A stretch of DNA of 64,000 nt from Vibrio astriarenae (GTDB lineage Bacteria; Pseudomonadota; Gammaproteobacteria; Enterobacterales; Vibrionaceae). Shown here one piece after another: positions 22,580-47,405 of the stretch. The stretch covers positions 1,860,001-1,924,000 of the forward strand of contig NZ_CP047475.1 in NCBI RefSeq assembly GCF_010587385.1. Reading direction: 5' to 3'. A program made the translations under genes and the position numbers. Below the pieces are notes generated by a model that saw only the letters and a program-made list of their open reading frames with translations, was not told the DNA's origin and did no database searches. Position 1 is the stretch's first letter, and the number at the start of each line of letters is the position of its first letter.

Positions 22580-23119
22580 ATGAAAGGAATCATTTTTACC
22601 GAGTTTTTGGAGCTCGTCGAGCAAGAGTTTGGTTTAGAGGTACTTGATAAGGTACTTGACCTGTCTGATGATGAGGGGATATACACCTCTGTGGGCAGTT
22701 ACGACCACAAAGATCTGGTTAAACTTATTGTCAACTTGAGCAAAACAACGGACGTGCCACCAGATCAACTACAAGAAGTCTTCGGTGAAACCGTCTTCAA
22801 AAACTTGCTCGCTACGCTGCCATCTAATGCAACGCTAAAGGACTGTGCCCATTGCTTCGAATTTGTCCGTCACGTTGAAGAGTATATCCACGTAGAAGTG
22901 AAAAAACTCTACCCAGATGCCAATCCGCCAAAGTTTGAGTTTATTTCAGAGTCAGAAACTGAACTCGTTTTCGATTACAAAAGCGCACGCTGCATGGCTC
23001 ATGTCTGCGTTGGCCTACTAAAAGGATGCGCTAAACACTTCAATCAAACCATAGACATGACAATGTCGCCGCTCAATGAGCAAGGCAGTGAAGTTCGCTT
23101 CACGGTGACTGCGACCTAA
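22580..23119 (+). CDS. hnoX: H-NOX nitric oxide-sensing haem protein
   Basis: 179 residues, full length for a bacterial stand-alone H-NOX. The start MKGIIFTEFLELVEQEFG is the family signature. The proximal haem ligand is His104 (YIHVEVKKLYPDANPP), and the YxSxR haem-propionate motif is Tyr133-Ser135-Arg137. H-NOX proteins bind NO at ferrous haem and inhibit a partner histidine kinase encoded next door. Here the partner gene starts 38 bases later. The strong site AGGTGGAG precedes the ATG. In Vibrio fischeri the homologous HnoX is reported to restrain syp biofilm formation. Confidence 0.93.
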   Translation: MKGIIFTEFLELVEQEFGLEVLDKVLDLSDDEGIYTSVGSYDHKDLVKLIVNLSKTTDVPPDQLQEVFGETVFKNLLATLPSNATLKDCAHCFEFVRHVEEYIHVEVKKLYPDANPPKFEFISESETELVFDYKSARCMAHVCVGLLKGCAKHFNQTIDMTMSPLNEQGSEVRFTVTAT

Positions 23120-23157
23120 TTGACGTTTAAATTAGATAAATCATGTGAGGCGTAGGT

Positions 23158-24885
23158 TTGAGCACAGAAAACAACGACCAAATAGCCAGTAGAGCTATGA
23201 TGAGAAAGCTTGCTAGGGAGATTGCATCTCGCAAGCAAGCGGAGCAACTGCTTGAACAAAAAAGCCTCGAACTGTTCCAAGCTAACCAAAGGCTAGAAGT
23301 TGCGATCGCTCAACTCGAGAAAACCTCTGCCGACAATATTGTTAAACTAGAGTTTCAGCAACAGATCGACTCCTTACTGATCTATTTTGGCCAAGCCTTT
23401 CTCAACCATCACCTAGATGACGTGTTAATTGGTAATCTCGTCAAGCGCATAGTCGAAACACCTCTTGTTCAATCTTGTTATATTCAGCTTAATCGAGACC
23501 TGCTTCTGAACCTGCAAAAGAGTGGTTATGGAAACAGTGAACTAGAAAAGAGTGTCGATGATACACATTGGAATGAGCAGACTCTCTACTTGGTACTGAC
23601 TGCCAACAGAACTAGAATTGGCGTATTGAGCGTCGAGGTCTTGAATGAAAACTACGAGCTCGAATTTTTCCAACGTTCATTTCAGCTTGTCGCGGACCTA
23701 CTCTGCGGCGCGGTAAACCGTCAGATCATCATCGATACCAATATTGAATCTCGTAAAAAAGCAGAAAAATCTGAGCAAGCTACTCGTGACTTTGTCGCCA
23801 TGATTAATCACGAATTACGCACACCACTGAACGGGTTACTCGGCAGTTCCGAGCTTTTACAGCAAACCAGCCTCGATAACCACCAGCTCGAGCTTGTCAA
23901 TAACCTTTCTCAATCTGGCGAATTTCTTCGTGTTATTATTAACGACCTACTCGATTTCAGTAAGATCAATGCAGGCATGTTCGAACTGATACCGAGTAAC
24001 TTTGCTTTTTCTCACCTACTCTCTTCTTTAACCAGCATTTTTGAACCGAAAGCGACGGAAAAATCCCTTAAGTTTTCTATTCTCTGCTCTCAATCACTAC
24101 CCAAAGCCTTTGAGGGTGATTTAGAGCGAATAACTCAAATCTTGGTTAACCTGATCGGTAATGCTATCAAGTTCACGGATTCTGGGTCCGTAACTGTTCG
24201 TTTTGATTGGTCTAAAGGTACCCTCAATTTTGAAGTGGAAGATACAGGTATTGGCATTAGTCAAAAAGCTCAAGAGAAGCTTTTCCAGCCTTTCACTCAA
24301 GAAGACCGTTCAAGTAAGCGAAATTTCGAAGGGACTGGTCTTGGTTTGGCTATCTGTCACCAACTGGTTGAACTGATGGGAGGCACTCTCTCACTCAACA
24401 GTGTCATCGACAAAGGTACTCGCTTTTTCGGACACATTCCTTTGAGAGCTCTTACTGAAAGTGAAGCGAAGCCTGCAGTCACTAAAAATGCAAAAGCGCA
24501 AGCTCTCCCAGATAACCTTTCCATTTTAGTTGTCGAAGATATCAAGATGAATCAGTTGATAATTAACCAGATGCTCGGCAAACTGGGGATAGAGCCAGAT
24601 ATAAAAGAGAATGGTGTTGAAGCCTTAGAGGCGATAGAGACCAAGCAGTATGACCTTGTCTTTATGGACTGTCGCATGCCTGTCATGGATGGATTTGAAG
24701 CCACTGCCAAAATGAGAGCGGCCGGTTTCACCCAACCCATACTCGCATTGACCGCCAGTACAACACTTGCTGAACGTGAGTTATGTATTGAATCTGGAAT
24801 GAATGATATTTTGACTAAACCTTATCGTGCGGAAGAGATATCAAACGCTCTAGCAAAATGGTTACTAGATACATTCTCAAATTGA
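23158..24885 (+). CDS. hahK: H-NOX-associated hybrid histidine kinase (HahK/HnoK type)
   Basis: 575 residues from TTG at 23158, with AGG just upstream. An N-terminal coiled coil (about 10-60) leads to a possible sensory domain (65-200). HisKA follows with His218 in MINHELRTPLNG, then HATPase_c (NLIGNAIKF, DTGIGIS, GTGLGLAI), and a receiver with Asp504 (VFMDCRMPVMDG). There is no membrane segment, so it is cytosolic, and no Hpt domain, so it needs a separate phosphotransfer partner. It overlaps an operator dyad at its 3' end. Its partner Hpt protein and SypG are encoded 5-7 kb downstream. Confidence 0.92.
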   Translation: MSTENNDQIASRAMMRKLAREIASRKQAEQLLEQKSLELFQANQRLEVAIAQLEKTSADNIVKLEFQQQIDSLLIYFGQAFLNHHLDDVLIGNLVKRIVETPLVQSCYIQLNRDLLLNLQKSGYGNSELEKSVDDTHWNEQTLYLVLTANRTRIGVLSVEVLNENYELEFFQRSFQLVADLLCGAVNRQIIIDTNIESRKKAEKSEQATRDFVAMINHELRTPLNGLLGSSELLQQTSLDNHQLELVNNLSQSGEFLRVIINDLLDFSKINAGMFELIPSNFAFSHLLSSLTSIFEPKATEKSLKFSILCSQSLPKAFEGDLERITQILVNLIGNAIKFTDSGSVTVRFDWSKGTLNFEVEDTGIGISQKAQEKLFQPFTQEDRSSKRNFEGTGLGLAICHQLVELMGGTLSLNSVIDKGTRFFGHIPLRALTESEAKPAVTKNAKAQALPDNLSILVVEDIKMNQLIINQMLGKLGIEPDIKENGVEALEAIETKQYDLVFMDCRMPVMDGFEATAKMRAAGFTQPILALTASTTLAERELCIESGMNDILTKPYRAEEISNALAKWLLDTFSN

Positions 24886-24888
24886 GAA
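24874..24888. promoter_or_regulatory. SypG-type enhancer dyad 1 of sypA
   Basis: TTCTCAAATTGAGAA is a 15-bp perfect palindrome matching the SypG enhancer pattern. It covers the hahK stop codon, so operator and coding end are shared. Confidence 0.8.
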
Positions 24889-24906
24889 ATAGTTAGTATC
24901 TCCGTT

Positions 24907-24921
24907 TTCTCTTTTTGAGAA
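24907..24921. promoter_or_regulatory. SypG-type enhancer dyad 2 of sypA
   Basis: TTCTCTTTTTGAGAA keeps the two half-sites with one change. Its centre is 33 bp (about three helical turns) from dyad 1, so both would face the same side of the DNA. Confidence 0.65.
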
Positions 24922-24969
24922 TCGTGACTAGACTGTAGTTAAGGCATTGAAATAAAAGGATAGTTAAAT

Positions 24970-24986
24970 TTGGCACAGATAGTGCT
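24970..24986 (+). promoter_or_regulatory. Sigma-54 promoter of sypA
   Basis: TTGGCACAGATAGTGCT has the -24 GG (24972-24973) and -12 GC (24984-24985) ten bases apart. It lies 50-100 bases downstream of two enhancer dyads and 43 bases before the sypA ATG. Confidence 0.85.
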
Positions 24987-25028
24987 TTGTAGGGTTATCA
25001 GACAAAAAAGTCATTTGGAGATAACATT

Positions 25029-25385
25029 ATGGAACTACAAACTCACGCTATCAACGAACAACTACTTTCTCTAGCAATCATCGGTGACTTTGACGCATCA
25101 GGAAGTAAGCAAGCACAAATCTGTATCGATTCTCTACTACAAGCCGATGATCACAAAGAGATCGAAATAGACCTGGCTCAAGTCGAGTTTCTAGACTCAT
25201 CGGGCATCGGCGCCATCGTTTACTTTTACAAACGACTAGTCGAGGCGGAAAGACAAATGCGCATCGAGAACGCACATGGTCAGCCGCTAAAAATGATGGA
25301 GTTATTGCGCATTGGTCAGGCAATTCCTCTAAACAAACATAATTCAGTGACGGTAGCAAACCAGGAACTTGCCACTACTCACTAA
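25029..25385 (+). CDS. sypA: STAS-domain regulator SypA
   Basis: 118 residues forming one STAS (anti-sigma-factor antagonist) domain. The conserved phosphorylation loop is VEFLDSSGIGAI, with Ser57/Ser58. In Vibrio fischeri, SypA is a post-transcriptional control point for syp biofilms, switched off when phosphorylated by SypE. No sypE is present at this locus, so its kinase must be elsewhere or absent. It is the first gene of the sigma-54 unit, with GGAG seven bases before the ATG. Confidence 0.88.
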   Translation: MELQTHAINEQLLSLAIIGDFDASGSKQAQICIDSLLQADDHKEIEIDLAQVEFLDSSGIGAIVYFYKRLVEAERQMRIENAHGQPLKMMELLRIGQAIPLNKHNSVTVANQELATTH

Positions 25386-25458
25386 AAGTCCGAACGTGAC
25401 AACATGATCGTGAGGACCAATAAATAAAACAAAAAGGTCGTCAAAAGGAGTAGACGTC

Positions 25459-26292
25459 ATGGCGCTAGGGAAAACAAAAATACTATTGGCAACAACGGCT
25501 GCGTTATCTTTGATAGCAGGTTGTTCCAACTACCCAGACCATGGTGATGGTGGTATGGCAGAGTATACGGCGCTTCCGGAATACTCTCCCGTACTACCAG
25601 ATGAACCTCTTGGCCCTGAGCACGGCCTGCGCTTCGACTTTCACCTTACGCAACTTCATCTCGACCAACTCATTCTTCAAGGCGCTGAATGGTGCTTCCC
25701 AGCGTCGGTCGTTCAAGCAAAAACCAAAGAGAAACGTATCGCACGAGAGCTTGAGGGTGATTTGCTACTAGACGCAGCTAACGACATTATTATTCAGCGC
25801 AAGAATCTCGCGCTGCTAGAGCGAAGACTCGATTACGTAACGAACGAAGCCGAGTGCGTGCCTCCAGAGCACAACTTAGCCTTTCAGAGCGAAGTTACTG
25901 TTATCAATCATCTTGTTGATATCTTAAACGTTGATAACCAGTTTGCCGTCGACTCGGTAGAGGTGAATCCGAAATATATGGGGAATCTTGCCGAAGCGGC
26001 TAATATCCTCAAAGAACACCCTCACTTGAACTTGAATGTGACAGGCCATACTGATGCAACGGGGACAGAGCGATATAATGACTCGCTTGCCATGGGTAGA
26101 GCAAAACAGGTGGAACGTTATTTAGTGATTTTTGGTTTAACACCAGCTCGAATCAAAACACTCTCTGTCGGCGAATCCCTCCCGCTCTTCGAGGGAGAAA
26201 CGCCGGGAGTTAGATTAACCAATCGCCGTGTGAGTATTGATATCATCTCAACTCGCAAACAAGGCGGGGGAGGCTCTAATGCAGGTTATTAG
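25459..26292 (+). CDS. sypB: OmpA-domain lipoprotein SypB
   Basis: 277 residues. A lipoprotein signal (MALGKTKILLATTAALSLIAGC, lipobox IAGC) precedes a middle region of unknown fold. The C-terminal OmpA peptidoglycan-binding domain follows (LNVTGHTDATGTERYND, GRAKQVERYL, LTNRRVSIDI). It probably anchors the polysaccharide export apparatus at the outer membrane and cell wall. It is the second gene of the syp locus in standard order; its last 14 bases overlap the sypC start. Confidence 0.88.
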   Translation: MALGKTKILLATTAALSLIAGCSNYPDHGDGGMAEYTALPEYSPVLPDEPLGPEHGLRFDFHLTQLHLDQLILQGAEWCFPASVVQAKTKEKRIARELEGDLLLDAANDIIIQRKNLALLERRLDYVTNEAECVPPEHNLAFQSEVTVINHLVDILNVDNQFAVDSVEVNPKYMGNLAEAANILKEHPHLNLNVTGHTDATGTERYNDSLAMGRAKQVERYLVIFGLTPARIKTLSVGESLPLFEGETPGVRLTNRRVSIDIISTRKQGGGGSNAGY

Positions 26293-29194
26293 ATTTCTTC
26301 TTCTGATTTTTGTCGGATGTTTTTCCGTTTTTTCTGCTCAAGCAAACCCGGTACAAATCGGTGATTTAGTTCAGGTAAACCTCCCTGGTGAAGAGTCCCT
26401 CAATCGCGGCTTCCAAGTTGACAAAAACGGTCGAATCAATCTTCCAGAAGTCGGGCCAACCTACGTTGCTGGTTACAATGAAGAGCAGTTGGCGTCAGTC
26501 GTAAGTAAAGCCATGGCTAACGTGCTTAGAGATGTGAATAATCTTCGTGTCTTCGTTGCAAAAAAACAGGTCATCATTTCAGTTCAGGGCTATGTTCGCT
26601 CTCCAGGTGAATATACGCTCACCGATAGCTCCACAGTGCAAATGGCGCTCTTTGCCGCAGGAGGGCTTCGACCTGGAGCTCAACTCGACCAATTACAATT
26701 AAAACGCGGCCCAAAAACCATCGTCTTCAACTATAAGCATTTTCTCGACACCGGCGATGGCAAAGTCCTCCCACCGCTTCAATCGCTCGATTCCATCTTT
26801 GTCCCTGCTTCACCTCTTGTGGGTAATATTGAACAAGAGTTCGACCCTGCTAAATTAGCTAACTCCGGAGATAGCGCAGACAGCCGTTCCGCCATCAAAG
26901 TATTCGGTGAAGTAAATGCTCCTGGATCATTTAGCTTTAAAGAGGGCACAGACCTTGTTGACATCATCATGCGCTCTGGCGGTGTGACGCGTTTTGCTAG
27001 CGTGGAGCAAATCCGCGTTATCTCAAACGAGAAGCCTACGCTGTTCAACTTAAAACGCTACCTCGATACCGGTGACTCATCTTTGATGCCAAAACTAACG
27101 GCGGGCTCCACTGTCTTTGTTCCAAAAATGGAGGAAGAGATAAAGGCCGGAGCAAATACCGTGTATGTGATGGGTGAAGTGGCCCAGCCCGGCGCGTTTG
27201 AAGGCAATAAAGGCGCCACTTTTATGGACATTCTGGCTAATGCCGGTGGCCCAACTCGCTTTGCTGAGTCTCGTCAAATTCGAGTATTAAGAGCCAACGG
27301 TGACGTGATCCGCTTCGACCTTACTGCTTATACAGAAGGCATAGGAGCCTCTACGCCACCAGAAATTAAACCGGGTGACGCGATTTTTGTTCCAGAGAAA
27401 ACGGACATGAATGAAGCATCGTGGCTAAAAGTCTCTCCTGATAGAGCCGTCAATATTCTCGGTGAAGTGACGCGCCCAGGGCGAGTTGAATGGTCTGACG
27501 AAATGGACCTAATCGACCTTCTCGCTCACGTTGGCGGCCCTACATTGCTTGCTGATACGACAAAAATTGAGATTGCTACAGGTGATGGCATAGCAACCGT
27601 CTTTGACTTAGATGCCTTCATTCGAAGCGGCGCACCTCGAAACGAACTCCCTCAAATCAAATCAGGGGCAGTGATACGCCTCTCCAATACCGGTAGTGCG
27701 GGAGATACACGCACCTCAATCAAGATCTTCGGAGAGGTGAATGAACCGGGTTCATTTCGATTCAAAGAAAACACAAGCTTAGTTGACGTGATCATGCGCT
27801 CAGGTGGCGTCACTCGATACGCAAGTGTTGAGCAAATTCGTATTATCTCCAACAATACTCCTACTCTTTTTAACCTGAAACGTTACCTCGACTCTGGTGA
27901 CGCCTCTTTGCTCCCAGAACTCACCCCTGGCTCCACTATTTTTGTTCCAAAAATGGAAGAGGAGATAAAAGCGGGGTCTAACACGGTTTACGTAATGGGT
28001 GAAGTGGCTAAACCCGGTGCTTTCGAGCAAAACAGAGGCGCCACTTTCATGGATATTTTGGCAAATGCCGGCGGTCCAACGCGTTTTGCAGAAGCAAGAA
28101 ATATTCGGGTACTCAAGTCCGACGGAAAAGTCGTTCGCTTTAACTTATCGGCCTACACTGAAGGGTTAAGTAACCTTCCTCCTCCAATTATCGAACCCGG
28201 TGATGCGATCTTTATTCCCGAAAAGACAGATATCAACGAAAAGTCATGGCTGAAAATTCCACCCAATCAAGTCGTACATGTTATCGGGGAAGTGGTACGC
28301 CCCGGTCGAATTGAGTGGTCAGACGAAATGGATTTAATGGATCTCCTCGCGCATGTTGGTGGCCCTACTTTACGAGCAGACACCACAAAGCTTGAAATCG
28401 CCAATGGACGTGGTCCTCTTCAAGTCTTTGACCTCGATGCATTCATTAAAAATGGCGCACCTCAGGGAGATTTACCTCTCATTAACGCTGGCACTATCGT
28501 CCGCGTCCATGATTTGCCTCAAGACCCTTCTGATAACAAATCTCAATGGGTGAGACAAAGCTCTGACGCATCAATTTACGTGTTTGGTCAAGTGAATGCC
28601 CCCGGCCGTTACCGCTTTACTACTGAGATGCACTTCTTGGATATTCTATCTGCAGCCGATGGTCCGACTAAAGACGCTGACATACACAACATCCGCGTGA
28701 CACATCGTGATAAGCCCTACGCTAAAGTAAGTAAGCTCAACCTTTCACTTTACTTTGAGACAGGGGATGAATCTATCCTGCCCGTTGTTCTTCCAGGCGA
28801 TACGATCTATATCCCAGAGAAAGACAAAAATTGGCTAGATAGATCAAAAGAGACAACCGTTCGTGTGCTAGGGGCTGTACGCAACCCAGGACGCTATGTC
28901 TTTGATGATAATATGACGATCTTAGATCTACTGGCTGAAGCCGGCGGCCCTACCGAGTTTGCTTATCTAGAGAAGATTAGCGTAGTGAACCTTTCATGCT
29001 GCCAAAACCAAGCGAGAACCTTCGACCTTATTGAGTTTAGTAAGACGGCAGAGTATAGAGATCTACCCGTCATTCGCACTGGTGATACCGTCTACATCCC
29101 CCACCGCCGCGACAGCTTTATGGAAAAAGCTCGAAATAGCTTAGACGATGTTTTACGCATCGCTACAGCCATCGCGCTGATAGGAGCATTGTAA
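26279..29194 (+). CDS. sypC: Polysaccharide export protein SypC with duplicated SLBB block
   Basis: 971 residues from the ATG at 26279, chosen because a GGGGGAGG ribosome site and a signal peptide (IRFLLLIFVGCFSVFSAQA) follow it. A poly-export domain (about 25-100) is followed by about nine SLBB-type repeats (each with GEV..PG.....). Two consecutive 275-residue blocks of three repeats are near copies. Wza-like exporters are usually 350-600 residues, so this protein has an unusually long periplasmic part. It would form the outer-membrane exit channel for the syp polysaccharide. Confidence 0.88.
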   Translation: MQVIRFLLLIFVGCFSVFSAQANPVQIGDLVQVNLPGEESLNRGFQVDKNGRINLPEVGPTYVAGYNEEQLASVVSKAMANVLRDVNNLRVFVAKKQVIISVQGYVRSPGEYTLTDSSTVQMALFAAGGLRPGAQLDQLQLKRGPKTIVFNYKHFLDTGDGKVLPPLQSLDSIFVPASPLVGNIEQEFDPAKLANSGDSADSRSAIKVFGEVNAPGSFSFKEGTDLVDIIMRSGGVTRFASVEQIRVISNEKPTLFNLKRYLDTGDSSLMPKLTAGSTVFVPKMEEEIKAGANTVYVMGEVAQPGAFEGNKGATFMDILANAGGPTRFAESRQIRVLRANGDVIRFDLTAYTEGIGASTPPEIKPGDAIFVPEKTDMNEASWLKVSPDRAVNILGEVTRPGRVEWSDEMDLIDLLAHVGGPTLLADTTKIEIATGDGIATVFDLDAFIRSGAPRNELPQIKSGAVIRLSNTGSAGDTRTSIKIFGEVNEPGSFRFKENTSLVDVIMRSGGVTRYASVEQIRIISNNTPTLFNLKRYLDSGDASLLPELTPGSTIFVPKMEEEIKAGSNTVYVMGEVAKPGAFEQNRGATFMDILANAGGPTRFAEARNIRVLKSDGKVVRFNLSAYTEGLSNLPPPIIEPGDAIFIPEKTDINEKSWLKIPPNQVVHVIGEVVRPGRIEWSDEMDLMDLLAHVGGPTLRADTTKLEIANGRGPLQVFDLDAFIKNGAPQGDLPLINAGTIVRVHDLPQDPSDNKSQWVRQSSDASIYVFGQVNAPGRYRFTTEMHFLDILSAADGPTKDADIHNIRVTHRDKPYAKVSKLNLSLYFETGDESILPVVLPGDTIYIPEKDKNWLDRSKETTVRVLGAVRNPGRYVFDDNMTILDLLAEAGGPTEFAYLEKISVVNLSCCQNQARTFDLIEFSKTAEYRDLPVIRTGDTVYIPHRRDSFMEKARNSLDDVLRIATAIALIGAL
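26894..27718 (+). repeat. sypC internal tandem repeat, copy 1
   Basis: 825 bases (275 codons) coding three SLBB units. Three anchor points (FGEV..., MEEEIKAG..., WSDEMDL...) recur exactly 825 bases later. Confidence 0.9.
27719..28543 (+). repeat. sypC internal tandem repeat, copy 2
   Basis: Second 825-base copy. The proteins are very similar, but third codon positions have diverged, so the duplication is old or kept apart at the DNA level. Confidence 0.9.
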
Positions 29195-29883
29195 TGACAG
29201 TTTCAAGTACTCACGCCGAACTGGAGCAGGTGTTTATCAAGCTAGAACTCGCCGAAGCGAAAACGATCTGTATTACGTCTGATAAGCCTCGCTCTGGCTC
29301 AACGAGTCTTGCCTCGGCACTGACAGAGCGTTACATGCTCGCTGGCTATAAAACGCTGCTTGTGGATTTTAATCTCTTTAACCCGTCATTTAGCGATATG
29401 ACCCTAAACCACACAAACAAGAACGAACCTTTGGTTTTGCGAGATGATACGCAACAAGTCTTTAGTGGTATCGCAGCGCCTAGAGTACTCTCCGATCAAC
29501 TCTCCTATCGCGATCCAACAAACCTTCGCAAAAATATCCAACAATGGAAAGAGCATTTTGACAGAGTTGTCTTCGACACGTGTGCACTCTCGCAAACCAA
29601 CCAGTCCAATATTCCGACAGCGGTGGTGGCCCATGTTACTGATGCCTCGGTTTTAGTCATTGCAGGCGGGCACACCAAGGGTGAAGAACTCAACAGTGCT
29701 GTTGCCCAACTTAAAGCGACAGATGCTAATCTTGTAGGAATCGTACTCAATCAATTTGATCAAAATACCCTTTCAGAAGAGCTTGTACGCGTCGCAGATA
29801 AAGGACGCTTTTTGCCAGAGAAGTGGAAAGTGTACATCAAAGCTTGGCTCAATCGCAGCGCCCTATTTAGGCAGTCTGTATAG
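29194..29883 (+). CDS. sypD: SypD, BY-kinase-like ATPase with altered Walker A
   Basis: 229 residues of the Wzc/CapB cytoplasmic-domain family, which drives polymerisation and export with a Wzz-like partner (here SypO). The P-loop reads SDKPRSGSTSLA instead of the usual EGKST form: the catalytic lysine is replaced. The A' motif is LLVDFNLFNPS and the B motif VVFDT. The C-terminus (WLNRSALFRQSV) has no tyrosine cluster. Either it is a non-catalytic relic or it uses another residue. The start overlaps the sypC stop by one base (TAATG). Confidence 0.82.
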   Translation: MTVSSTHAELEQVFIKLELAEAKTICITSDKPRSGSTSLASALTERYMLAGYKTLLVDFNLFNPSFSDMTLNHTNKNEPLVLRDDTQQVFSGIAAPRVLSDQLSYRDPTNLRKNIQQWKEHFDRVVFDTCALSQTNQSNIPTAVVAHVTDASVLVIAGGHTKGEELNSAVAQLKATDANLVGIVLNQFDQNTLSEELVRVADKGRFLPEKWKVYIKAWLNRSALFRQSV

Positions 29884-29912
29884 CACTAAAGACGACAAAA
29901 GGAGTTTTGCAC

Positions 29913-30272
29913 ATGTCTAACACCGAATTTCCTATCCTTGATCAAAATGTAGTCGATCAAGTGGTCAGTGACACTGGCATAGAGATCTTGCCACTTTTGA
30001 TAGATAGTTACCTAGATGAATCTAAAATTCGACTCGGGAACATTGCTCAAGCGGTAGAAAGCAAAGATGGAGAAACCTTAGAGTTTGAAGTTCACACTTT
30101 AGGCAGCACTTCTCTAGCCATTGGGGTAGAAGCCTTGGGGCGTTTATCACGACAGATAGAGCATTTATGCCTTGAAGGGAAGCATGATGAAGCTTTCGCG
30201 CTATACCCTCAGGTCTCTGAGCTCGCAGAACGATCACACAGTGCTTTGCAAACATTGAAGCAAGGTCTATAA
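29913..30272 (+). CDS. Stand-alone Hpt phosphotransfer protein
   Basis: 119 residues from the ATG at 29913, which lies nine bases after AAAGGAG; a TTG at 29907 is a poorer choice. The whole protein is one Hpt four-helix domain with phospho-accepting His61 in EVHTLGSTSLAIGVEAL. It occupies the position where sypE and sypF lie in Vibrio fischeri, between sypD and sypG. In that species the Hpt domain of SypF passes phosphate to SypG. Here this protein is the obvious link from the hybrid kinase to SypG. Confidence 0.88.
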   Translation: MSNTEFPILDQNVVDQVVSDTGIEILPLLIDSYLDESKIRLGNIAQAVESKDGETLEFEVHTLGSTSLAIGVEALGRLSRQIEHLCLEGKHDEAFALYPQVSELAERSHSALQTLKQGL

Positions 30273-30349
30273 CTATAAATACTGACCTATTTACTAACTA
30301 ATTGAACTAATAATAAAAATCAGCGTACTTAGCTGAACAAGGATGTTTT

Positions 30350-31849
30350 ATGAGACCCAAAGTTCTCTTGGTGGAAGACTCAACTTCACTGGCTATTCTC
30401 TACCAACAGTACGTCAAAGACGAACCCTACGATATGTTTCACGTTGAAACTGGACGCGAAGCAAAGGCTTTCATCGAGAAGCAACTGCCGCAACTTGTGA
30501 TACTTGATCTCAAATTGCCCGATACGTCAGGTGAAGAAATCTTAGAGTGGATCGTCGAGAATGAATTTCCCATCTCCGTGGTAATAGCGACAGCTCACGG
30601 CTCGGTTGATATCGCCGTGAATCTCATCCAAATCGGCGCTGATGATTTCCTTGAAAAGCCCATTCAAGCTGACAGACTAAAAACCTCGGTTCGGCTTCAT
30701 CTCAAGCGCGCTAAACTCGAAACTCTCGTCAACAAGATGGAGACGGAGTTCGACCGAACTAACTTCCATGGATTTATCGGTTCGAGTTTACAGATGCAAG
30801 CCGTCTACAAAACCATTGAGTCTGCAGCCCCAACGTCTGCCAGTGTATTCGTACATGGTGAAAGTGGTACAGGTAAAGAAGTGTGCGCCGAGGCCATCCA
30901 CCAGCAAAGTAGCCGTGCTAACAAGCCTTTTGTCGCCATCAACTGTGGTGCTATTCCTAAAGACCTGATGGAAAGCGAGATCTTCGGACATGTAAAGGGC
31001 GCTTTCACTGGTGCAACAACAGACCGTAAAGGCGCAGCAATGCAGGCCAATGGGGGGACTCTTTTCCTCGATGAGCTTTGTGAAATGGAATTGGAGATGC
31101 AGAAAAAGCTGCTGCGTTTTTTACAACTCGGTACATTCACACCGTTGGGGGGTAGCAGAGAGATCAAAGTTGATTGCCGAATCATCTGTGCAACGAACCG
31201 AGACGCACTAAAAGAAGTTACTGAGGGGCGTTTTAGAGAAGACTTGTATTACCGTGTTCACGTTATTCCAATCGATATGCCGCCTTTAAGAGAGCGCGGT
31301 AATGATATTGTGACTCTGGCTAATCATTTCGTTAAGTTGTATGCCAAACAAGATAAGAAGAAATTCAAAGGCCTAAGTAAAGACGTTGAGAAATACTTCT
31401 TAAGTTACGAATGGCCAGGAAATGTTCGCCAACTGCAAAATATAATGCGCAATATTGTCGTGCTCAATGACGGTGACTACGTAGAGATGTCGATGTTGCC
31501 TCCTCCTCTAAATACACCTATGGCTGCTACCAAAACCGTGTCTGAGACGACAGCTCATCAACCAGCGGCCATAGTACCACAACCTGTGTATGTTGAGCCT
31601 GAGCCGCACGCGCCAGTGTATGTCGACGAAGCGCCACAAGCGAGTCCAGTGGAACCAGTGGCAGTCAGCTCACCGACGCAACCACAAGAGATACGCCCGA
31701 TGTGGCAAGTGGAAAGAGAAGCGATTCAAAATGCGATTGAGTATTGTGACGGTAACGTTCTCAACGCAGCGGTTTTACTCGACTTGAGCCCATCAACAGT
31801 GTATCGAAAGAAACAGCAATGGGAACAAGAAGAACAAAGCGAGAGTTAA
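30350..31849 (+). CDS. sypG: Sigma-54-dependent response regulator SypG
   Basis: 499 residues. A receiver with Asp53 (VILDLKLPDTSG) is followed by an AAA+ domain with Walker A GESGTGKE near residue 170 and the sigma-54 contact loop GAFTGA at 217-222. A proline/glutamate-rich linker (about 385-450) precedes a Fis-type helix-turn-helix (NVLNAAVLLDLSPSTVYRKK). SypG activates syp promoters from upstream dyads. Such dyads and GG-N10-GC promoters are present in the window. The neighbouring Hpt gene supplies a likely phosphodonor. Confidence 0.94.
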   Translation: MRPKVLLVEDSTSLAILYQQYVKDEPYDMFHVETGREAKAFIEKQLPQLVILDLKLPDTSGEEILEWIVENEFPISVVIATAHGSVDIAVNLIQIGADDFLEKPIQADRLKTSVRLHLKRAKLETLVNKMETEFDRTNFHGFIGSSLQMQAVYKTIESAAPTSASVFVHGESGTGKEVCAEAIHQQSSRANKPFVAINCGAIPKDLMESEIFGHVKGAFTGATTDRKGAAMQANGGTLFLDELCEMELEMQKKLLRFLQLGTFTPLGGSREIKVDCRIICATNRDALKEVTEGRFREDLYYRVHVIPIDMPPLRERGNDIVTLANHFVKLYAKQDKKKFKGLSKDVEKYFLSYEWPGNVRQLQNIMRNIVVLNDGDYVEMSMLPPPLNTPMAATKTVSETTAHQPAAIVPQPVYVEPEPHAPVYVDEAPQASPVEPVAVSSPTQPQEIRPMWQVEREAIQNAIEYCDGNVLNAAVLLDLSPSTVYRKKQQWEQEEQSES

Positions 31850-31874: not shown

Positions 31875-32933
31875 GTGAGCCAATCGAATCAACGCGATTT
31901 TGTCGAACCAGACATCGGGGAGATATGGCTACTATTGGATAGCCTTACTTTTGGTGGGATTGAAACGCATGTCGTCGAGTTGGCGCTCGGCTTAAAGACC
32001 TTTGAGCAACCTGTGCGTGTTGTGCTGTTAACTGAGTTCGACCGCCCTTCGGCTATCGTTGGAAAATTAGCAGCGCTCGAACTCAACTACTGTTATCTAC
32101 ATCAACTCTCAGATGTACCCTCTTCTACAGGCTTTATGAGCCTATTAAAACAGTGCAGGCAAGCCTGTCTGCGCTATCAACCCAAAGTCATCCATGCACA
32201 TGGCTACAAAGCTAATCTTGTGAGTAAACTGAGTTCAGGCACGACTAGGCAAGTGTCTACATTCCATTCCGGTGAAACACCAAAAGGACTTGTTCGACTG
32301 TATGATCTTTTTGACCGATTTAGCGCTTTTTTATCGGCTCATAACTTCACTGTAAGCCAAGCTATCTCTGATAAAATCCCAACACAAACCCATGTGCTTA
32401 ATAACTTTATCAGTGTGGATGGGCTCACGTCGTCTCAGGGTAAACAAGTCGCTTTTGTCGGCAGACTTAGCCACGAAAAAGGCCCCGACCTCTTTATCTC
32501 AGTAGCAGAGCAGCTTCCGCAAATCACCTTTCACCTCTATGGCGATGGTCCAATGATGCAATCACTAGGTCATGATTCCCCGAGTAACATTGTGTTCCAT
32601 GGTTTTCAATCTGACATGCGCAAAGTCTGGCCAGAGATAGGGCTACTCTTAATCACATCACGTTACGAAGGGCTGCCGATGACCGCTCTAGAGGCGATGG
32701 CAAGAGGCATTCCAGTCATTAGCACCAGAGTTGGTGCGATTGAGTCACTGATCAGCGATAAGCAAAACGGTTGGATTGCTAACAGTATTGATGATTTCCC
32801 TAGTCTTATTCAGCAATGGCTTGAATTAGACAACCAACTTCGACAAAAAATAGTGCACAGTGCAGAAAATACCATCACTTCTCACTACTCCACTCAGGCC
32901 GTCATTCCACAAATTATTGATTCATATCGATAG
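31875..32933 (+). CDS. sypH: GT4 glycosyltransferase SypH
   Basis: 352 residues, GT-B fold, family GT4. The N-terminal lobe has the SLTFGGIETHVVELA start typical of these enzymes. The C-terminal lobe has VGRLSHEKGPDLFISVAEQL and the E-x7-E catalytic region SRYEGLPMTALEAMARGIPVI. It adds one sugar to the undecaprenyl-linked syp repeat unit. The start is GTG at 31875 with AGGGGG upstream. It is the last gene of the first syp block. Confidence 0.85.
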   Translation: MSQSNQRDFVEPDIGEIWLLLDSLTFGGIETHVVELALGLKTFEQPVRVVLLTEFDRPSAIVGKLAALELNYCYLHQLSDVPSSTGFMSLLKQCRQACLRYQPKVIHAHGYKANLVSKLSSGTTRQVSTFHSGETPKGLVRLYDLFDRFSAFLSAHNFTVSQAISDKIPTQTHVLNNFISVDGLTSSQGKQVAFVGRLSHEKGPDLFISVAEQLPQITFHLYGDGPMMQSLGHDSPSNIVFHGFQSDMRKVWPEIGLLLITSRYEGLPMTALEAMARGIPVISTRVGAIESLISDKQNGWIANSIDDFPSLIQQWLELDNQLRQKIVHSAENTITSHYSTQAVIPQIIDSYR

Positions 32934-36286: not shown

Positions 36287-37540
36287 ATGACTAAAAAAAT
36301 TCCACTACTTATTGTGCACTACGGTGATAACTGGATTCGCGGCAGTGAAGTGTGTCTCATGAATATGATTGATTCACTCGATAATCGTTATGTCCCGATT
36401 GTGTGGACAAACAATCCCGCTTTCGCTGACTATGCCGAAGCAAACCATATCATAGTTGAGCAAAGCGAGTTCCCGGAACTGGTGTGCCTTCACTCAGGTC
36501 AACGCAAAATTGACTGGAATAATTGGTGTCTTCTATTCAACAAAGCGCGGTACCTAATCCGCAAGCACCACATCAAACTGATACACGTTAACAGTGGTGC
36601 TCCATGTCAGTGGATGGCTTCCGCTGCTCGTGCGACTCATACTCCCATTGTCGCTCAACTGCATTGCGAATATAACCTGCACGACCGCTTCACACTTGGC
36701 CTGCATACAGTGCCAAACATTATCACGGTTAGTCATGCCATCAGCCAATCTCTACTTGAAGAGGGATATGAACAGCATCGCCTTCATGTCGTACACAACG
36801 GCGTTCCAGTGACAAGCAAAGAAGATATTGAGCCTGTCAACATTCGAGAAGAGCTAGGAATCAACGAAGACGCTAAAATCATACTGAGTGTTGGCTCTCT
36901 TATAGAACGTAAGGGCGTGGATAGATTAATCTCCACTATCTATCGTCTACGTGAAGAAGGCATCAACGCCCATCTAGTAGTAATAGGCGATGGTGAATGC
37001 AAAACTTTGCTGGAACAGTTTGCACAAGCGATTAATGTAGAAGATTACGTTCATCTAATTGGTGAACAAAATAACGTAAATGCATGGCTGCACGGTGGGG
37101 CAAACCTGTTTATTAGCGGCGCTCGCAGCGAAGCATTTGGACTCGTTCTTGTTGAGGCAGCGCTAGCAGGTATTCCAGTCATTGCTCCTGCTACAGGCGG
37201 CATTGTCGAAGTGATCAAGGATAGAAAAACTGGCCTACTTTACCCAAACAATAAAGACGCGGTTGAGCATATCACTCAACGTGCAACTTCAATCCTTTAT
37301 GACCAAGAATATGGCCAAGAGCTTGCGGCTGCTGGTTTGACTCATGCTCAACAACACTTCTCGGTTGAAAACAATGTCTCGCATATTGAGGCGGTATATG
37401 AACATGTTCTACTCCAGCCAGGACAGCACAAATCAGTTTTCTCTGTGTTCCGCTGCGCTTTGCGCCCCTTAAAAACCGTGTGGAAAAAACACATTATTAA
37501 TCGCTTCTTTGTGAGAGGAGCTCGCTATGAAAACTGCTAA
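36287..37540 (+). CDS. sypI: GT4 glycosyltransferase SypI
   Basis: 417 residues, GT4. The donor-binding lobe shows LSVGSLIERKGVDRLISTI and the E-x7-E region SEAFGLVLVEAALAGIPVI. The C-terminal 40 residues are basic and may contact the membrane. First gene of the second syp unit, with AGAGAGGC before the ATG. It overlaps sypJ by 14 bases. Confidence 0.85.
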   Translation: MTKKIPLLIVHYGDNWIRGSEVCLMNMIDSLDNRYVPIVWTNNPAFADYAEANHIIVEQSEFPELVCLHSGQRKIDWNNWCLLFNKARYLIRKHHIKLIHVNSGAPCQWMASAARATHTPIVAQLHCEYNLHDRFTLGLHTVPNIITVSHAISQSLLEEGYEQHRLHVVHNGVPVTSKEDIEPVNIREELGINEDAKIILSVGSLIERKGVDRLISTIYRLREEGINAHLVVIGDGECKTLLEQFAQAINVEDYVHLIGEQNNVNAWLHGGANLFISGARSEAFGLVLVEAALAGIPVIAPATGGIVEVIKDRKTGLLYPNNKDAVEHITQRATSILYDQEYGQELAAAGLTHAQQHFSVENNVSHIEAVYEHVLLQPGQHKSVFSVFRCALRPLKTVWKKHIINRFFVRGARYENC

Positions 37541-38687
37541 CCTACGACATGTTATTGTCTATGACCCTATCCCGTTTCATGGCGGCTCAAAAGTTGCGAC
37601 GCTGCATGCGCTTGAACAAACCAATGAGAGTGTACTATTCCATGTGCTGTCAGCTCATCCTCAAAGTTGGCAAAGTGCGAACCTCGCTGACGCCAATGAA
37701 CCTATGATTCATGTATCGACGCTACCAATACCCAACTTGCTAGCGACTCAAACACAGGGCCTAGCCTACTGGCTAAAACAGGGTTATCTCGTCATGATGT
37801 TGTTGATGTACACCCTTGCGCTTTTTACACGCTACCTACAATGCCCTAGTAAAATTGTTCTAGCTTCAGGGCCGGGTGTCGATTTTGCTGGTTACGTGTT
37901 AGCTCATCTTACTCGATTACCTGCGGTACAGCTGGTTCACGGGCCTGTAGGCAAGAGTCGTGTAGCGAAGTGGTGTCTAACTCAAGCGCATCAGACTTTT
38001 TATCTAGAATCTGCGAAACCTTCTTTGTTGGCTGCGCTGGAAACGCCATTTGCGGAGCTACCTAAACACTTCCATGCATTCGTCAATGGGCTACCCCAAA
38101 GACTTTGGCCAACCAACAGTCTCGTGCAAAGACAGTGGCACCATCCGACGGTTTTTTGGGCTGCGTCTCTATTAAAATGGAAGGGGCTTGATTTACTGGT
38201 TGATTCGTTACAGCGTCACAGACTAAGCCAACATTTACACAGCAACATCTGTTACATCCAACCAGAAAAAACATCAGCAGAAGTCAGTCAGGCCAATATT
38301 CCTGTACAAAATTGTCAATGGCATCGTTCGCCTCGTGACCTTGATGAACTGCGAGCAAATTCTGATATTTACGTCTCGACGAGCCAGTTCGAACCTTTTG
38401 GGCTATCGACACTAGAAGCATTGGCTGCCGGCCTCATTGTCGTTATTCCTGCTGACGGTGCCTACTGGGACCACCAACTTCAACACGGCTACAACTGCTA
38501 CAAATACCGTATGAACGATCCGGAAAGCCTAAATCAAATCTTGGAGCACATTTGCCGAAATATGAAAAGTTGTCGAAGAGTGGCAATAAATGGTCAGAAA
38601 ATTGCAAACCTCTATAAAGCACGCGAAACCTATCGTGATATTGCGGACGCTATCCAAGCCAGTGTCACTGATAAGGTAACGACTTAA
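37527..38687 (+). CDS. sypJ: GT4-like glycosyltransferase SypJ
   Basis: 386 residues. The N-terminal lobe contains a hydrophobic stretch (GYLVMMLLMYTLALFTRY) that may sit on the membrane. The C-terminal lobe has FWAASLLKWKGLDLLVDSL and SQFEPFGLSTLEALAAGLIVVIP, the GT4 catalytic region. Good ribosome site (GAGAGGAG). Its position after sypI is the syp order. Confidence 0.83.
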   Translation: MKTANLRHVIVYDPIPFHGGSKVATLHALEQTNESVLFHVLSAHPQSWQSANLADANEPMIHVSTLPIPNLLATQTQGLAYWLKQGYLVMMLLMYTLALFTRYLQCPSKIVLASGPGVDFAGYVLAHLTRLPAVQLVHGPVGKSRVAKWCLTQAHQTFYLESAKPSLLAALETPFAELPKHFHAFVNGLPQRLWPTNSLVQRQWHHPTVFWAASLLKWKGLDLLVDSLQRHRLSQHLHSNICYIQPEKTSAEVSQANIPVQNCQWHRSPRDLDELRANSDIYVSTSQFEPFGLSTLEALAAGLIVVIPADGAYWDHQLQHGYNCYKYRMNDPESLNQILEHICRNMKSCRRVAINGQKIANLYKARETYRDIADAIQASVTDKVTT

Positions 38688-38702
38688 AACGAGGATAAAG
38701 CT

Positions 38703-40151
38703 ATGTCAGTCAGCTATGGAATACGTCAACGCATTAAAAAGATATCAAGTTCACAAGCCGGTGATATGGCGAGCTATGCCATTGCGTTGTTTTTCATGAA
38801 AGGGTTGTCACTGATCATGCTCCCAATCATTACCCGCTACCTTGCTCCTGCCGAGATGGGACAGCTTGAAATTCTTGCTGTGACCGGAGCGTTACTTGGC
38901 ATTTTGTTCTCTGTCGCTCTCCATGAGGCTCTGTACCGCTTTGCAGGACAAGCGAAAGGCGAAGAGCAAGCAAAAATAGCCAACTCTCTGTTTACAATGA
39001 CTTTACTGTTCTCTTTTTGCGCCGGATGCACTGGTATCGCATTCCTCGCTCACATAGAGTGGCCAACAGATTGGGAGCTAGAAAAAACGCCCGTACTCAT
39101 ATTATTCGGCTCTCTGACTATTGAAGGCGCGTTGGCAATGTCGCTAGCATGGTTACGAATGCTAGAGCGATCAAAAATATTCACTTTGATTTGCATTGTG
39201 ACAAGCAGTTTGCAAGTCACTCTAGTGCTACTAGGCCTAGAGATAGGTTTCAGCATTAACGGTGTGCTGATTGCTGGTTTCATTGCCCACTTAATCCAGC
39301 TAGGTTGGGTCGTCAGAACAACTCAGTTGAAACTCCACATTCCAACCTCACGATTTGTCAAACAATCGCTCAAATACACCGCACCGATTATGCTTTCTGG
39401 GATCTGTGCCTTCGGCCTGAATGGTGCTGAGCGCTGGTTTATTTTAGAGGGGGAGTCATTCGCGACACTTGGCCAGTATGCGATTGCTGCAAAATTTGCC
39501 CTCGCTATGTGTATCTTGGTTCAACCATTTGGTATGTGGTGGATGCCCAAACGTTTCGCCATGCTGGATTCAAATGTTGAGAAAGCGACTAGAATTACAG
39601 AAAAAGGTATCGCTTACATCTGCTTACTGGCTCTTACCATTAGCTTATGTGGTCAATGGGCGCTCGAATTTTTACTGACTGATACCTACACCCCAGCGTC
39701 ACAGTTGTTAACAGGAGCCATTTTCATGGTGTTAGGGAAAGAGTATTGCGAGTTGCTTAACCTTGGACTTTTGAAGCAAAAGAAAACAACTACGCTGTTT
39801 TACATTAATCTGGTCTCTGCCATTTTTGCTATCACCGCTATGATGGTGACATATCAATACGGCATCTGGAGCATCATTCTCACTGTTGGTATCACTCAGT
39901 TGCTGCGGGCCATAGCCATCTTTGCCTTCAGCCAACGTAGTTTCCGTCTACCCTACAACACTTACAAGCTCGGCATAATTTTGGTCATTACCCTAGTAGG
40001 AATGGCGACTCTGAACTCCAATGCGTCCATAGTTACTATGCTATTCACATGGGTGGTTACGTGCTTTGGTATCATCATATCGGTGATCCCCAATAAGATC
40101 AGAATATTTGGTTCACTATCCAAGCTAACCTCTGACAGTAAAGCGTTATGA
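38703..40151 (+). CDS. sypK: Wzx-type polysaccharide flippase SypK
   Basis: 482 residues with about 12-14 hydrophobic segments, no signal peptide, and the typical start of a MOP-superfamily lipid-linked oligosaccharide flippase (FFMKGLSLIMLPIITRYLAPAEMGQLEI). It would move the undecaprenyl-linked repeat unit across the inner membrane. AGGATAAAGCT precedes the ATG. Its stop overlaps the sypL start by four bases. Confidence 0.88.
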   Translation: MSVSYGIRQRIKKISSSQAGDMASYAIALFFMKGLSLIMLPIITRYLAPAEMGQLEILAVTGALLGILFSVALHEALYRFAGQAKGEEQAKIANSLFTMTLLFSFCAGCTGIAFLAHIEWPTDWELEKTPVLILFGSLTIEGALAMSLAWLRMLERSKIFTLICIVTSSLQVTLVLLGLEIGFSINGVLIAGFIAHLIQLGWVVRTTQLKLHIPTSRFVKQSLKYTAPIMLSGICAFGLNGAERWFILEGESFATLGQYAIAAKFALAMCILVQPFGMWWMPKRFAMLDSNVEKATRITEKGIAYICLLALTISLCGQWALEFLLTDTYTPASQLLTGAIFMVLGKEYCELLNLGLLKQKKTTTLFYINLVSAIFAITAMMVTYQYGIWSIILTVGITQLLRAIAIFAFSQRSFRLPYNTYKLGIILVITLVGMATLNSNASIVTMLFTWVVTCFGIIISVIPNKIRIFGSLSKLTSDSKAL

Positions 40152-41518
40152 ATCACTCGTTGTTCACGCCAGCCCCACTCATTACCCTACTTTGCATTGG
40201 TATAATTGGTGCTGCATGGATGCTTGTACCACATCCCGCACTAGTCATTGCAATCTGTGCCCTGCCTATTGCAATCCTCGTTGTCATACGCCACCTGTTT
40301 TGGTTTGTGATTTTATTCGTTGTTTTCTCTTTCTTCCGCATTCACGAAGTGATTCCGCAACTGATGCCGTTTAAACTCCCCCTGCTCTTATCGTTAGGTG
40401 CATTGGCATCATTATGCTGGCATGCTTTCATCAGCCGTACATTACCGCTCTACTGGCACCCTTCAATGAAATGGCTGGCGATTTTCTGGGCTTTGGTCTT
40501 TGTCGGACTCATCTTTGCTTCAAATCGGGGAATTGCGATTACCTCGTTTAAGTCGGTGTATTGGAAGATCATCATCATGACGTTAGCGATAATCTGGATC
40601 GTCAACAACAAAGAGCAACTATCGCAAACGTGCTGGCTGATTGTTTGGGCAGGTCTGCTCGTGGCAGGTGTTGCGATTTATAACGCTCAAATGGGGATTG
40701 GGTTGGTTGAAGGGTCAAGGGTCACCATTGGTCGAAATATTGGCTCTATGCTCGGCGACCCGAATGATTTAGCTCTCGTGCTTCTCTTCCCCTTGGCCTT
40801 TTCAGTCAGCTTTCTGTTTAATACTAAGCTTGGGTTTGCACCCAGAGCTTTCGGTTTCTTAGTTGCAGCCTCCCTATCACTTGCGATTATCGAGACACAA
40901 AGCCGAGGTGGCTTGCTGGGCATGCTCACTGTTTACGGTGTCTTCATGCAACAATCGATCAAGTCAAAGACTCTGTTAACGTTTATCGCCGTTGCTGGTA
41001 TCGCGTTTTTATACGTCGCTGCAGGTATTTCCGACCGTGCTTCTGGTGGCGCTGCTGAGGAAGGGATCGACGCCTCGGCAATGGGACGTATCTATGCATG
41101 GGAAGCGGCAGCTAGAATGGCACTTGTTAACCCTCTTACCGGTGTTGGTCTAAATAACTTCTACTTTAACTACTACTTCTATAGCTCACATTGGGACGGC
41201 CTCAACCATGCCGTACACAGTACTTGGTTCGGTGTGCTTGCAGAAACTGGCATTTTGGGATTATGCATCTTCATTGCCCTCATCGTCTCTCTTGCGAGAA
41301 CCGCTAAGCGGTCGCTCGATATTCTTAAACAACAAACCTCTCCATCCCCTTATCTTGTCTCCGCCGCTAAAGCGGTATTCGCTGGTTTGATGGGGACGAT
41401 TGTCTCAGGCACCTTCCTTACTCAGGGTTTTGTTTGGCCCATTTACATTCTTGCTGCGCTCATTATTTCAATATCCACTATCGTTCAAAACGATTCTCAA
41501 AATGAGAACCTAAAATAG
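40148..41518 (+). CDS. sypL: Wzy/O-antigen-ligase-type polymerase SypL
   Basis: 456 residues with about 11 membrane segments and a periplasmic loop. The O-antigen ligase/polymerase (Wzy_C) signature region is seen in NPLTGVGLNNFYFNYYFYSSHW...HSTWFGVLAETGILGL. It would polymerise the flipped repeat units. Its last codons (DSQNEN) lie on a SypG-type operator dyad. Confidence 0.85.
   Translation: MNHSLFTPAPLITLLCIGIIGAAWMLVPHPALVIAICALPIAILVVIRHLFWFVILFVVFSFFRIHEVIPQLMPFKLPLLLSLGALASLCWHAFISRTLPLYWHPSMKWLAIFWALVFVGLIFASNRGIAITSFKSVYWKIIIMTLAIIWIVNNKEQLSQTCWLIVWAGLLVAGVAIYNAQMGIGLVEGSRVTIGRNIGSMLGDPNDLALVLLFPLAFSVSFLFNTKLGFAPRAFGFLVAASLSLAIIETQSRGGLLGMLTVYGVFMQQSIKSKTLLTFIAVAGIAFLYVAAGISDRASGGAAEEGIDASAMGRIYAWEAAARMALVNPLTGVGLNNFYFNYYFYSSHWDGLNHAVHSTWFGVLAETGILGLCIFIALIVSLARTAKRSLDILKQQTSPSPYLVSAAKAVFAGLMGTIVSGTFLTQGFVWPIYILAALIISISTIVQNDSQNENLK
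41494..41508. promoter_or_regulatory. SypG-type enhancer dyad of sypM (inside sypL 3' end)
   Basis: TTCTCAAAATGAGAA, two perfect half-sites around AAA. It is encoded within the last codons of sypL. Confidence 0.75.
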
Positions 41519-41555
41519 CAACGACCTAAACCACTGATTATAATCATAATATTTT

Positions 41556-41572
41556 TTGGCACGTAATGTGAA
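41556..41572 (+). promoter_or_regulatory. Weak sigma-54 promoter of sypM
   Basis: TTGGCACGTAATGTGAA has a perfect -24 element, but the -12 dinucleotide is GA instead of GC. Position and spacing from the dyad at 41494 fit the other syp promoters. Confidence 0.55.
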
Positions 41573-41600
41573 ACGTCTTTAGTAACCCGGACGCTTTTGC

Positions 41601-41635
41601 TTCTTAAATTGAGAAACACTTTCTCAAACTTAGAT
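41601..41635. promoter_or_regulatory. Two degenerate SypG-type dyads in the sypM leader
   Basis: TTCTTAAATTGAGAA (41601-41615) and TTCTCAAACTTAGAT (41621-41635) each keep one good half-site. They lie downstream of the promoter above, which is odd for enhancers. Confidence 0.4.
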
Positions 41636-41672
41636 TCAAAGGCGGATTGAAAACTAAAGCGAGGACGTGACC

Positions 41673-44984: not shown

Positions 44985-45028
44985 TCTTCATTAACACAAA
45001 ATATATCATTAAATCAGACCCTTAAGTG

Positions 45029-45045
45029 TTGGCATAAACCGTGCA
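45029..45045 (+). promoter_or_regulatory. Sigma-54 promoter of sypP
   Basis: TTGGCATAAACCGTGCA with GG-N10-GC. Transcription would begin near 45056, so the possible GTG at 45060 would have almost no leader. Confidence 0.85.
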
Positions 45046-45110
45046 GTATCAAGAGAGGAGTGGTTAATCACTTCAAGATTGCACAACAACAACGTCTTAA
45101 GGGTCTCGAC

Positions 45111-47374: not shown

Positions 47375-47405
47375 ACGTCAGCTTTGGTAAAGAAAGGAAT
47401 TTACT

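Follow-up and report, generated by a model that had tools for sequence, protein, structure and literature searches.

An H-NOX/hybrid kinase pair beside an Hpt-only syp cluster in Vibrio: parts of a candidate nitric oxide-responsive phosphorelay

We analyzed a stretch of 64 000 nt from Vibrio astriarenae (NZ_CP047475.1, positions 1 860 001 to 1 924 000; hereafter the window, with coordinates counted from its first nucleotide), in which genes for an H-NOX sensor of nitric oxide (NO) and a soluble hybrid histidine kinase precede a syp polysaccharide cluster whose sypF slot holds a stand-alone Hpt protein. We observed the same order, H-NOX–kinase–sypABCD–Hpt–sypG–sypH, in 13 of 227 Vibrio genomes (one per species, the window's included), and this recurrence indicates that the gene order is more than chance. 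We consider it probable that kinase, Hpt and SypG form a phosphorelay under the control of NO and H-NOX, so that an NO input is physically joined to an Hpt-only syp cluster. The parts, their residues, the promoter elements and the conserved linkage were all observed here. The features are as follows:

22580..23119, plus strand: H-NOX (HnoX), 179 amino acids (aa); Pfam HNOB at 131.6 bits against a cut-off of 25.5, His104, YxSxR at 133–137, H-NOX relatives in the PDB
23158..24885, plus strand: soluble hybrid histidine kinase, HahK/HqsK orthologue by Pfam, identity to relatives and hydropathy; TTG start as given by the open reading frame (ORF) finder
24874..24888, plus strand: palindrome TTCTCAAATTGAGAA resembling a SypG upstream activating site, 0 mismatches, overlapping the kinase stop codon
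24907..24921, plus strand: second SypG-type site, 1 mismatch
24971..24986, plus strand: sigma-54 promoter-like element TGGCACAGATAGTGCT of sypA, 1 mismatch
25029..25385, plus strand: sypA (STAS; Pfam), 51–84% identical to SypA of relatives
25459..26292, plus strand: sypB (OmpA family; Pfam)
26282..29194, plus strand: sypC, polysaccharide export, SLBB repeats; start uncertain, longest ORF from 26237
29194..29883, plus strand: sypD, tyrosine-autokinase-like, 36–88% identical to the gene at the same position in relatives; NCBIfam eps_fam at 72 bits, under its cut-off of 108, and no Pfam match
29913..30272, plus strand: stand-alone Hpt in the sypF slot, 119 aa, His61; Pfam Hpt at 41 bits
30350..31849, plus strand: sypG, sigma-54-dependent response regulator (receiver, sigma-54 domain, Fis helix–turn–helix; Asp53, GAFTGA)
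31875..32933, plus strand: sypH, glycosyltransferase (Pfam)
36287..48047, plus strand: syp I–R-like remainder of the cluster by Pfam, matched in order to other Vibrio syp loci (glycosyltransferases, flippase, polymerase, hexapeptide transferase, Wzz, priming transferase)

In the proposed relay the kinase would, without NO, autophosphorylate at His218, and the phosphoryl group would pass to Asp504 of its own receiver, from there to His61 of the stand-alone Hpt and finally to Asp53 of SypG. Phosphorylated SypG would bind the two palindromes between the kinase gene and sypA and fire the sigma-54 promoter of sypA as well as further syp promoters. NO-bound H-NOX would halt the kinase and might turn it into a phosphatase, and syp transcription would drop.

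An earlier sequence-only reading of this DNA had placed an H-NOX, a hybrid kinase, an Hpt protein and SypG at these positions with these residues, and gene calls, Pfam matches and alignments bear it out. In the H-NOX, His104 as well as Ser135 and Arg137 of the Y133-x-S135-x-R137 motif are conserved in all 84 aligned sequences, and NO binding would be expected from the V. parahaemolyticus H-NOX (PMC6759604). The kinase has HisKA, HATPase_c and Response_reg domains and no Hpt according to Pfam, follows hnoX directly and appears soluble, since no 19-residue stretch exceeds a Kyte–Doolittle value of 1.31; absence of a membrane segment and of an Hpt, together with domain order and position, is what characterizes HahK and HqsK. 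It is 49–66% identical to the kinases following H-NOX in named Vibrio loci. All 81 aligned kinases have His218 (residues numbered from the TTG at 23158), and all but that of the damaged locus L083 have Asp504; this alignment was drawn from 86 loci with an H-NOX above 140 bits, of which L068, L069, L071, L073 and L100 were dropped by length or score. Inhibition by NO-bound H-NOX is carried over from published orthologues and may apply here likewise. SypG combines a receiver with Asp53, a sigma-54 domain with GAFTGA and a Fis helix–turn–helix at a position inside syp, and its matches in 149 further Vibrio genomes, some of them partial, are 64–89% identical to it.

The protein in the sypF slot is the Hpt-only form and not the SypF kinase, because only an Hpt domain is present, homologous to the SypF C-terminus (39–52% identity to its Hpt); SypF itself unites sensor kinase, receiver and Hpt in one protein. 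It matches best the Hpt portion of SypF proteins and further stand-alone Hpts from syp clusters, and the phosphorylatable histidine (His61 from the ATG at 29913, His63 from the TTG at 29907 chosen by the ORF finder) is invariant in an alignment of 16 sequences. The protein is not LuxU either, as it scores 26.6 bits against a cut-off of 140 and the LuxU of this genome lies elsewhere, beside LuxO. In a PDB sequence search LuxU appeared no higher than E 0.023 and a single Hpt-type chain had an E value of 0.002, below stronger matches to repeat proteins that we took for artefacts. No sypE gene lies between sypD and the Hpt in the window or in its nearest relative (L081), elsewhere in the genome no sypE search being made.

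The sensor pair had been described as lying directly upstream of sypA, which is true, though two SypG-type palindromes and a sigma-54 element intervene (24874–24986). With this promoter in between, the H-NOX/kinase pair need not share the syp transcript; judging from these elements, syp output is probably driven by SypG from its own promoter and the pair is probably transcribed from another one. Scans of 22300–25100 for sigma-70 promoters and terminators gave no more hits than shuffled sequences. Before sypA, a sigma-54 element with at least one palindrome (at most 2 mismatches) was present in 13 of 13 linked loci, with one palindrome in L007 and two in the others; all 13 unlinked loci that we scanned showed the combination too, five having a single palindrome. 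In the window we counted 16 palindromes with at most 2 mismatches where 4.34 are expected, a number reached in 0 of 100 shuffles. Taken by themselves, sigma-54-like matches show no enrichment (45 against 40.7 expected), so that the evidence for this element is its placement adjoining the palindromes. A further SypG site before hnoX (22487–22501, 1 mismatch), which would have implied feedback on the sensor, was rejected as not conserved: the other 12 linked loci have no such site with at most 2 mismatches in the 300 bases preceding hnoX, 75 unlinked loci have none with at most 1 mismatch before hnoX, and no sigma-54 element accompanies the site.

Next, we turned to the linkage itself. The count of 13 is a lower bound, as both genes could be placed in 141 genomes and lay on one contig in 81; the H-NOX of 11 genomes, for which positions were missing, was counted as present but unplaced. 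The flanks of all 13 linked genomes were read individually, and the distance from H-NOX to SypG ranges from 6.9 to 8.2 kb. Among named loci (the best 80 of 262 relatives, L001–L080), sypA, B, C, D, Hpt, G and H follow the kinase in 7 and are absent there in 73; the named linked species are V. breoganii, V. comitans, V. superstes, V. halioticoli, V. maerlii, V. ulleungensis and Vibrio sp. qd031. In the nearest relative, genome G198 (locus L081), H-NOX is 94% and SypG 89% identical. We checked each linked locus for YxSxR and the proximal histidine of H-NOX, NHE[LI]RTP and the receiver motif MDCRMP of the kinase, the Hpt histidine, the SypG aspartate and GAFTGA, and all of them are kept in 11 of 13 (the window, L081, L001–L007, L113 and L114). 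Of the remaining two, G233 (L082) has GAYTGA instead of GAFTGA, and in G200 (L083) the reading frames at 7347–9176 cover no more than part of the H-NOX and a kinase without the receiver motif, although sypA–H are kept, which reflects either decay or sequencing error; L083 was removed from the distance and later tree analyses of kinases. The kinases of 10 linked genomes form one clade with support 98 (G200 left out, G176 and G232 outside the tree), and the linkage is kept despite kinase divergence down to 58–60% identity.

H-NOX (E <= 1e-10) was found in 161 and SypG (E <= 1e-170) in 150 of the 227 genomes; 142 have both, 8 SypG only, 19 H-NOX only and 58 neither (Fisher p 1.7e-28, without correction for kinship). 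Three more genomes carry H-NOX less than 17 kb from SypG, next to the distal end of the cluster. In G098 and G248 (loci L111 and L110) it lies 143 bases after sypR on the same strand, is 43–44% identical to the window's and is followed by a hybrid kinase (frames of 568 and 573 codons, both phospho-site motifs present); no SypG-type site with at most 2 mismatches precedes the H-NOX of L110. In G240, H-NOX and kinase are convergent with sypR, 58 bases away, and the genome encodes a full hybrid SypF. Comparing flanks over 87 loci, we observed a common Vibrio context in 66, presumably the ancestral one, a position on the sypA side in 12 (the window being the thirteenth) and on the sypR side in two; V. 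tapetis (L020) has a context of its own, and the Photobacterium and Shewanella loci, three each, make up two further groups. For a genome of 4.8 Mb we estimate that a random insertion falls within 1 kb of either syp end in about 4 of 10 000 cases, which makes three arrangements beside syp hard to attribute to chance. Since sides, strands and H-NOX lineages differ, we infer, from these differences and not from a tree, that the three arose independently. The H-NOX–kinase pair has thus apparently been captured repeatedly beside syp.

We then asked which form the sypF slot takes across the genus. A SypF-type Hpt was found in 139 of 227 genomes. All 13 linked genomes have an Hpt-only frame at this position; unlinked H-NOX-positive genomes comprise 69 with Hpt-only, 44 with hybrid and 4 with both forms, and H-NOX-negative ones 2 and 7, respectively, where forms were called by open-frame length and a broken hybrid, such as L091, can pass as Hpt-only. 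Being common in unlinked genomes, the short form is not a product of linkage; published surveys list many vibrios in which sypF is missing or truncated (PMC8941931, PMC5801674). Separately, G171 (L088), G092, G100 and G108 carry a full hybrid SypF plus a stand-alone Hpt about 4.5 kb apart, with three extra genes between them in L088, the one of the four that was read. G057 (L091 and L100) has split frames for both SypF and the H-NOX-associated kinase.

The case for the proposed relay draws on the conserved linkage, the further pairs beside sypR, the H-NOX/SypG co-occurrence, the promoter elements before sypA and the faster-evolving receivers described below, and also on V. fischeri, where HnoX inhibits HahK and HahK acts via SypF and SypG (PMC12369376); the order given in the sequence-only reading agrees with that pathway. 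In a V. fischeri sypF deletion the SypF Hpt alone fully restores HahK-driven pellicles (PMC12369376), for which reason the window Hpt looks like a natural counterpart. By analogy with these orthologues a HahK-type kinase can feed a SypF Hpt, and we infer that the kinase studied here prefers the window Hpt over LuxU, some sharing of its output with LuxU being likely. The earlier argument from one candidate per step holds inside the window, which encodes one Hpt, one HisKA and two receivers (those of the kinase and of SypG). It fails genome-wide, where we counted 10 Hpt domains, 31 HisKA and 61 receiver matches (one each of the latter two below the Pfam cut-off), and as a guide to relay order it is weakened by LuxU, VP1472 and the unlinked Hpts; besides the window Hpt and the LuxU encoded next to LuxO, eight further Hpt domains occur in frames of 420 to 1633 aa.

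Several observations weigh against the relay. The Hpt-only sypF is untied to linkage, as the 69 unlinked H-NOX-positive genomes demonstrate. LuxU and LuxO are encoded in this genome, and at least 11 other hybrid kinases have a receiver without a detected Hpt and may use the window Hpt. Orthologous kinases act on LuxU in both V. parahaemolyticus and V. fischeri (PMC6759604, PMC12369376): in the former, HqsK phosphorylated LuxU only and not VP1472 or VP2127 (PMC6759604), and in the latter HahK also signals via LuxU, its dependence on SypF being partial (PMC12369376). Deletion of hahK alone gave no pellicle defect in static V. fischeri culture (PMC11841056). VP1472 lies four numbers from sypA (VP1476) inside syp VP1476–1458 (PMC9604176) and would be the syp Hpt, judging from locus numbering (PMC4517449, PMC9604176) and from the presence of such Hpts in the species: the position agrees with the A–B–C–D–Hpt–G order in L085, and V. 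parahaemolyticus encodes relatives of that Hpt at 69–71% identity. The syp genes are numbered differently in a table of PMC7859628. In vitro, the unlinked V. parahaemolyticus kinase thus appears to pass over its syp Hpt, and a kinase of the linked clade could resemble either the V. parahaemolyticus or the V. fischeri state.

A change of partner in the linked clade would be expected to leave faster-evolving receivers. The slope of receiver against kinase-core distance is 1.63 in 10 linked and 0.99 in 64 unlinked kinases, and that of receiver against N-terminal part 0.78 and 0.45; neither linked value was reached by any of 4000 random sets of ten unlinked kinases, but such sets are not clades and a fixed-tree comparison is the fairer control. 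On the fixed tree the receiver/core ratio is 1.21 in the linked clade and 0.41 to 0.81 in unlinked clades of at least 5 members with a core length above 0.5. For Hpt relative to SypG, we obtained distance ratios of 3.70 (10 linked loci) and 2.84 (12 unlinked loci). At an 80% level in both groups only three alignment columns are fixed differently between linked and unlinked kinases, one of them in the receiver, and these say nothing about a switch. Other results count against the relay. Shallower unlinked clades reach 1.03, 1.36 and 1.53, the last two exceeding the linked clade, while a five-member subclade within the linked clade shows 0.90. We found no residual receiver–Hpt co-variation (partial r −0.37, a value matched or exceeded in 1861 of 2000 permutations). 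Similarity to 26 SypF receivers rises only slightly at contact-like segments, which were picked from general knowledge of receiver–Hpt complexes and not from a structure (0.386 linked versus 0.357 unlinked; helix 1 0.388 versus 0.354, rest 0.388 versus 0.393, whole 0.388 versus 0.382). The nearest sequence outside the linked clade also has a fast receiver (about 1.0, by difference), and any speeding-up may therefore predate the move. The faster receiver is a hint of partner switching, not a demonstration. A receiver that exchanged LuxU for the syp Hpt would have taken the kinase of this clade out of quorum sensing and created a dedicated relay between NO and polysaccharide whose parts are inherited together, the NO sensor having been captured beside syp three separate times in vibrios; we put this possibility forward tentatively and hold it doubtful as a whole.

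The strongest alternative to the relay is that the kinase is an HqsK working mainly via LuxU/LuxO quorum sensing, with NO reaching syp indirectly and the Hpt serving other kinases. The LuxU-only transfer measured in V. parahaemolyticus, the LuxU/LuxO pair of this genome, the use of LuxU by V. fischeri HahK and the Hpt-less hybrid kinases that need a partner all speak for it; it does not predict an H-NOX/kinase pair against syp in three arrangements, nor the partial SypF dependence in V. fischeri, and we judge it unlikely. Less likely still is a branch point between quorum sensing and syp at which the kinase feeds both Hpts equally: both are encoded here and V. fischeri HahK uses both SypF and LuxU (PMC12369376), but the faster receiver evolution suggests, weakly, a lost or relaxed constraint. 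That the pair was relocated once by chance and its adjacency has no regulatory meaning would suit the single neighbourhood of the 12 linked relatives and the single clade of 10 linked kinases (i.e. one event), the insertion sequences or integrases around syp of V. breoganii FF50 (PMC8941931) and the fact that V. breoganii and V. comitans carry the syp region on chromosome 2, but is very improbable given the further adjacencies beside sypR, the retention through kinase divergence to 58–60% and the H-NOX/SypG co-occurrence.

Some further features of the cluster were recorded. SypC is 970–985 aa long here, compared to 634–719 aa in the relatives read (711 aa in L081), and its SLBB repeats look duplicated, because two stretches of about 750 bases within the gene are 72% identical. 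Genes for arginine decarboxylase and agmatinase (polyamine synthesis) lie at 33124–35968 between sypH and sypI; the insert is present in L081 and has no match in the other 11 linked loci read, of which L001 and L002 end about 0.9 kb past sypH. Just past the cluster (48231–50535), a 717-aa protein with DUF4842 and GEVED is preceded by two SypG-type palindromes and a sigma-54-like element and is possibly a SypG-controlled matrix protein; in L092 a 58% identical relative is encoded divergently upstream of sypA. A MASE6-GGDEF diguanylate cyclase gene follows shortly behind the cluster at 51601–52641.

Taken together, the components are known and so is the kind of pathway, while the arrangement is new and very testable; an H-NOX beside syp was not found in the titles and abstract openings of the literature searched, subscription papers lying outside that search. 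In V. parahaemolyticus and V. harveyi an orthologous sensor and kinase (51% identity for the kinase of V. harveyi L008) have LuxU/LuxO as their published output (PMC6759604, PMC3759921), and unlike in the window no syp gene lies within 10 kb of H-NOX in L008. The syp/eps/scv clusters of V. harveyi, V. diabolicus and V. parahaemolyticus contain a stand-alone Hpt sypF, as the window does; V. harveyi L085 has the Hpt-only gene between sypD and sypG but no H-NOX pair in the neighbourhood. With the V. fischeri HnoX–HahK–SypF–SypG pathway, by which NO acts as a biofilm inhibitor (PMC12369376), the window has in common the H-NOX, the adjacent hybrid kinase, the SypF Hpt, SypG and the SypG sites with a sigma-54 promoter before sypA. 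It differs in that V. fischeri hnoX–hahK act on syp from another locus, as the sequence-only reading had also stated, whereas here the pair abuts sypA; that V. fischeri SypF is a full hybrid kinase which also acts on SypE, whereas here it is an Hpt only; and that sypE lies there between sypD and sypF, whereas here none lies between sypD and sypG. A V. fischeri-like layout was seen in L092 and L100, presumed to be Aliivibrio. The two published systems differ in how one kinase chooses between two Hpts: LuxU alone in V. parahaemolyticus assays, SypF and LuxU in V. fischeri. If the partner switch were true, nature would have made the switch between two Hpts and kept the ancestral state in sister species. 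In this small group of marine vibrios the sensor and kinase genes lie directly before biofilm genes that a related pathway governs in V. fischeri, a squid symbiont, so that whether NO switches biofilm off via four proteins is easily tested. The linked clade represents a third state beside the two published ones: its partners all lie within about 9 kb, the parts are small and soluble, and close relatives without the linkage can serve for comparison, which makes both partner choice and NO gating of a biofilm polysaccharide measurable.

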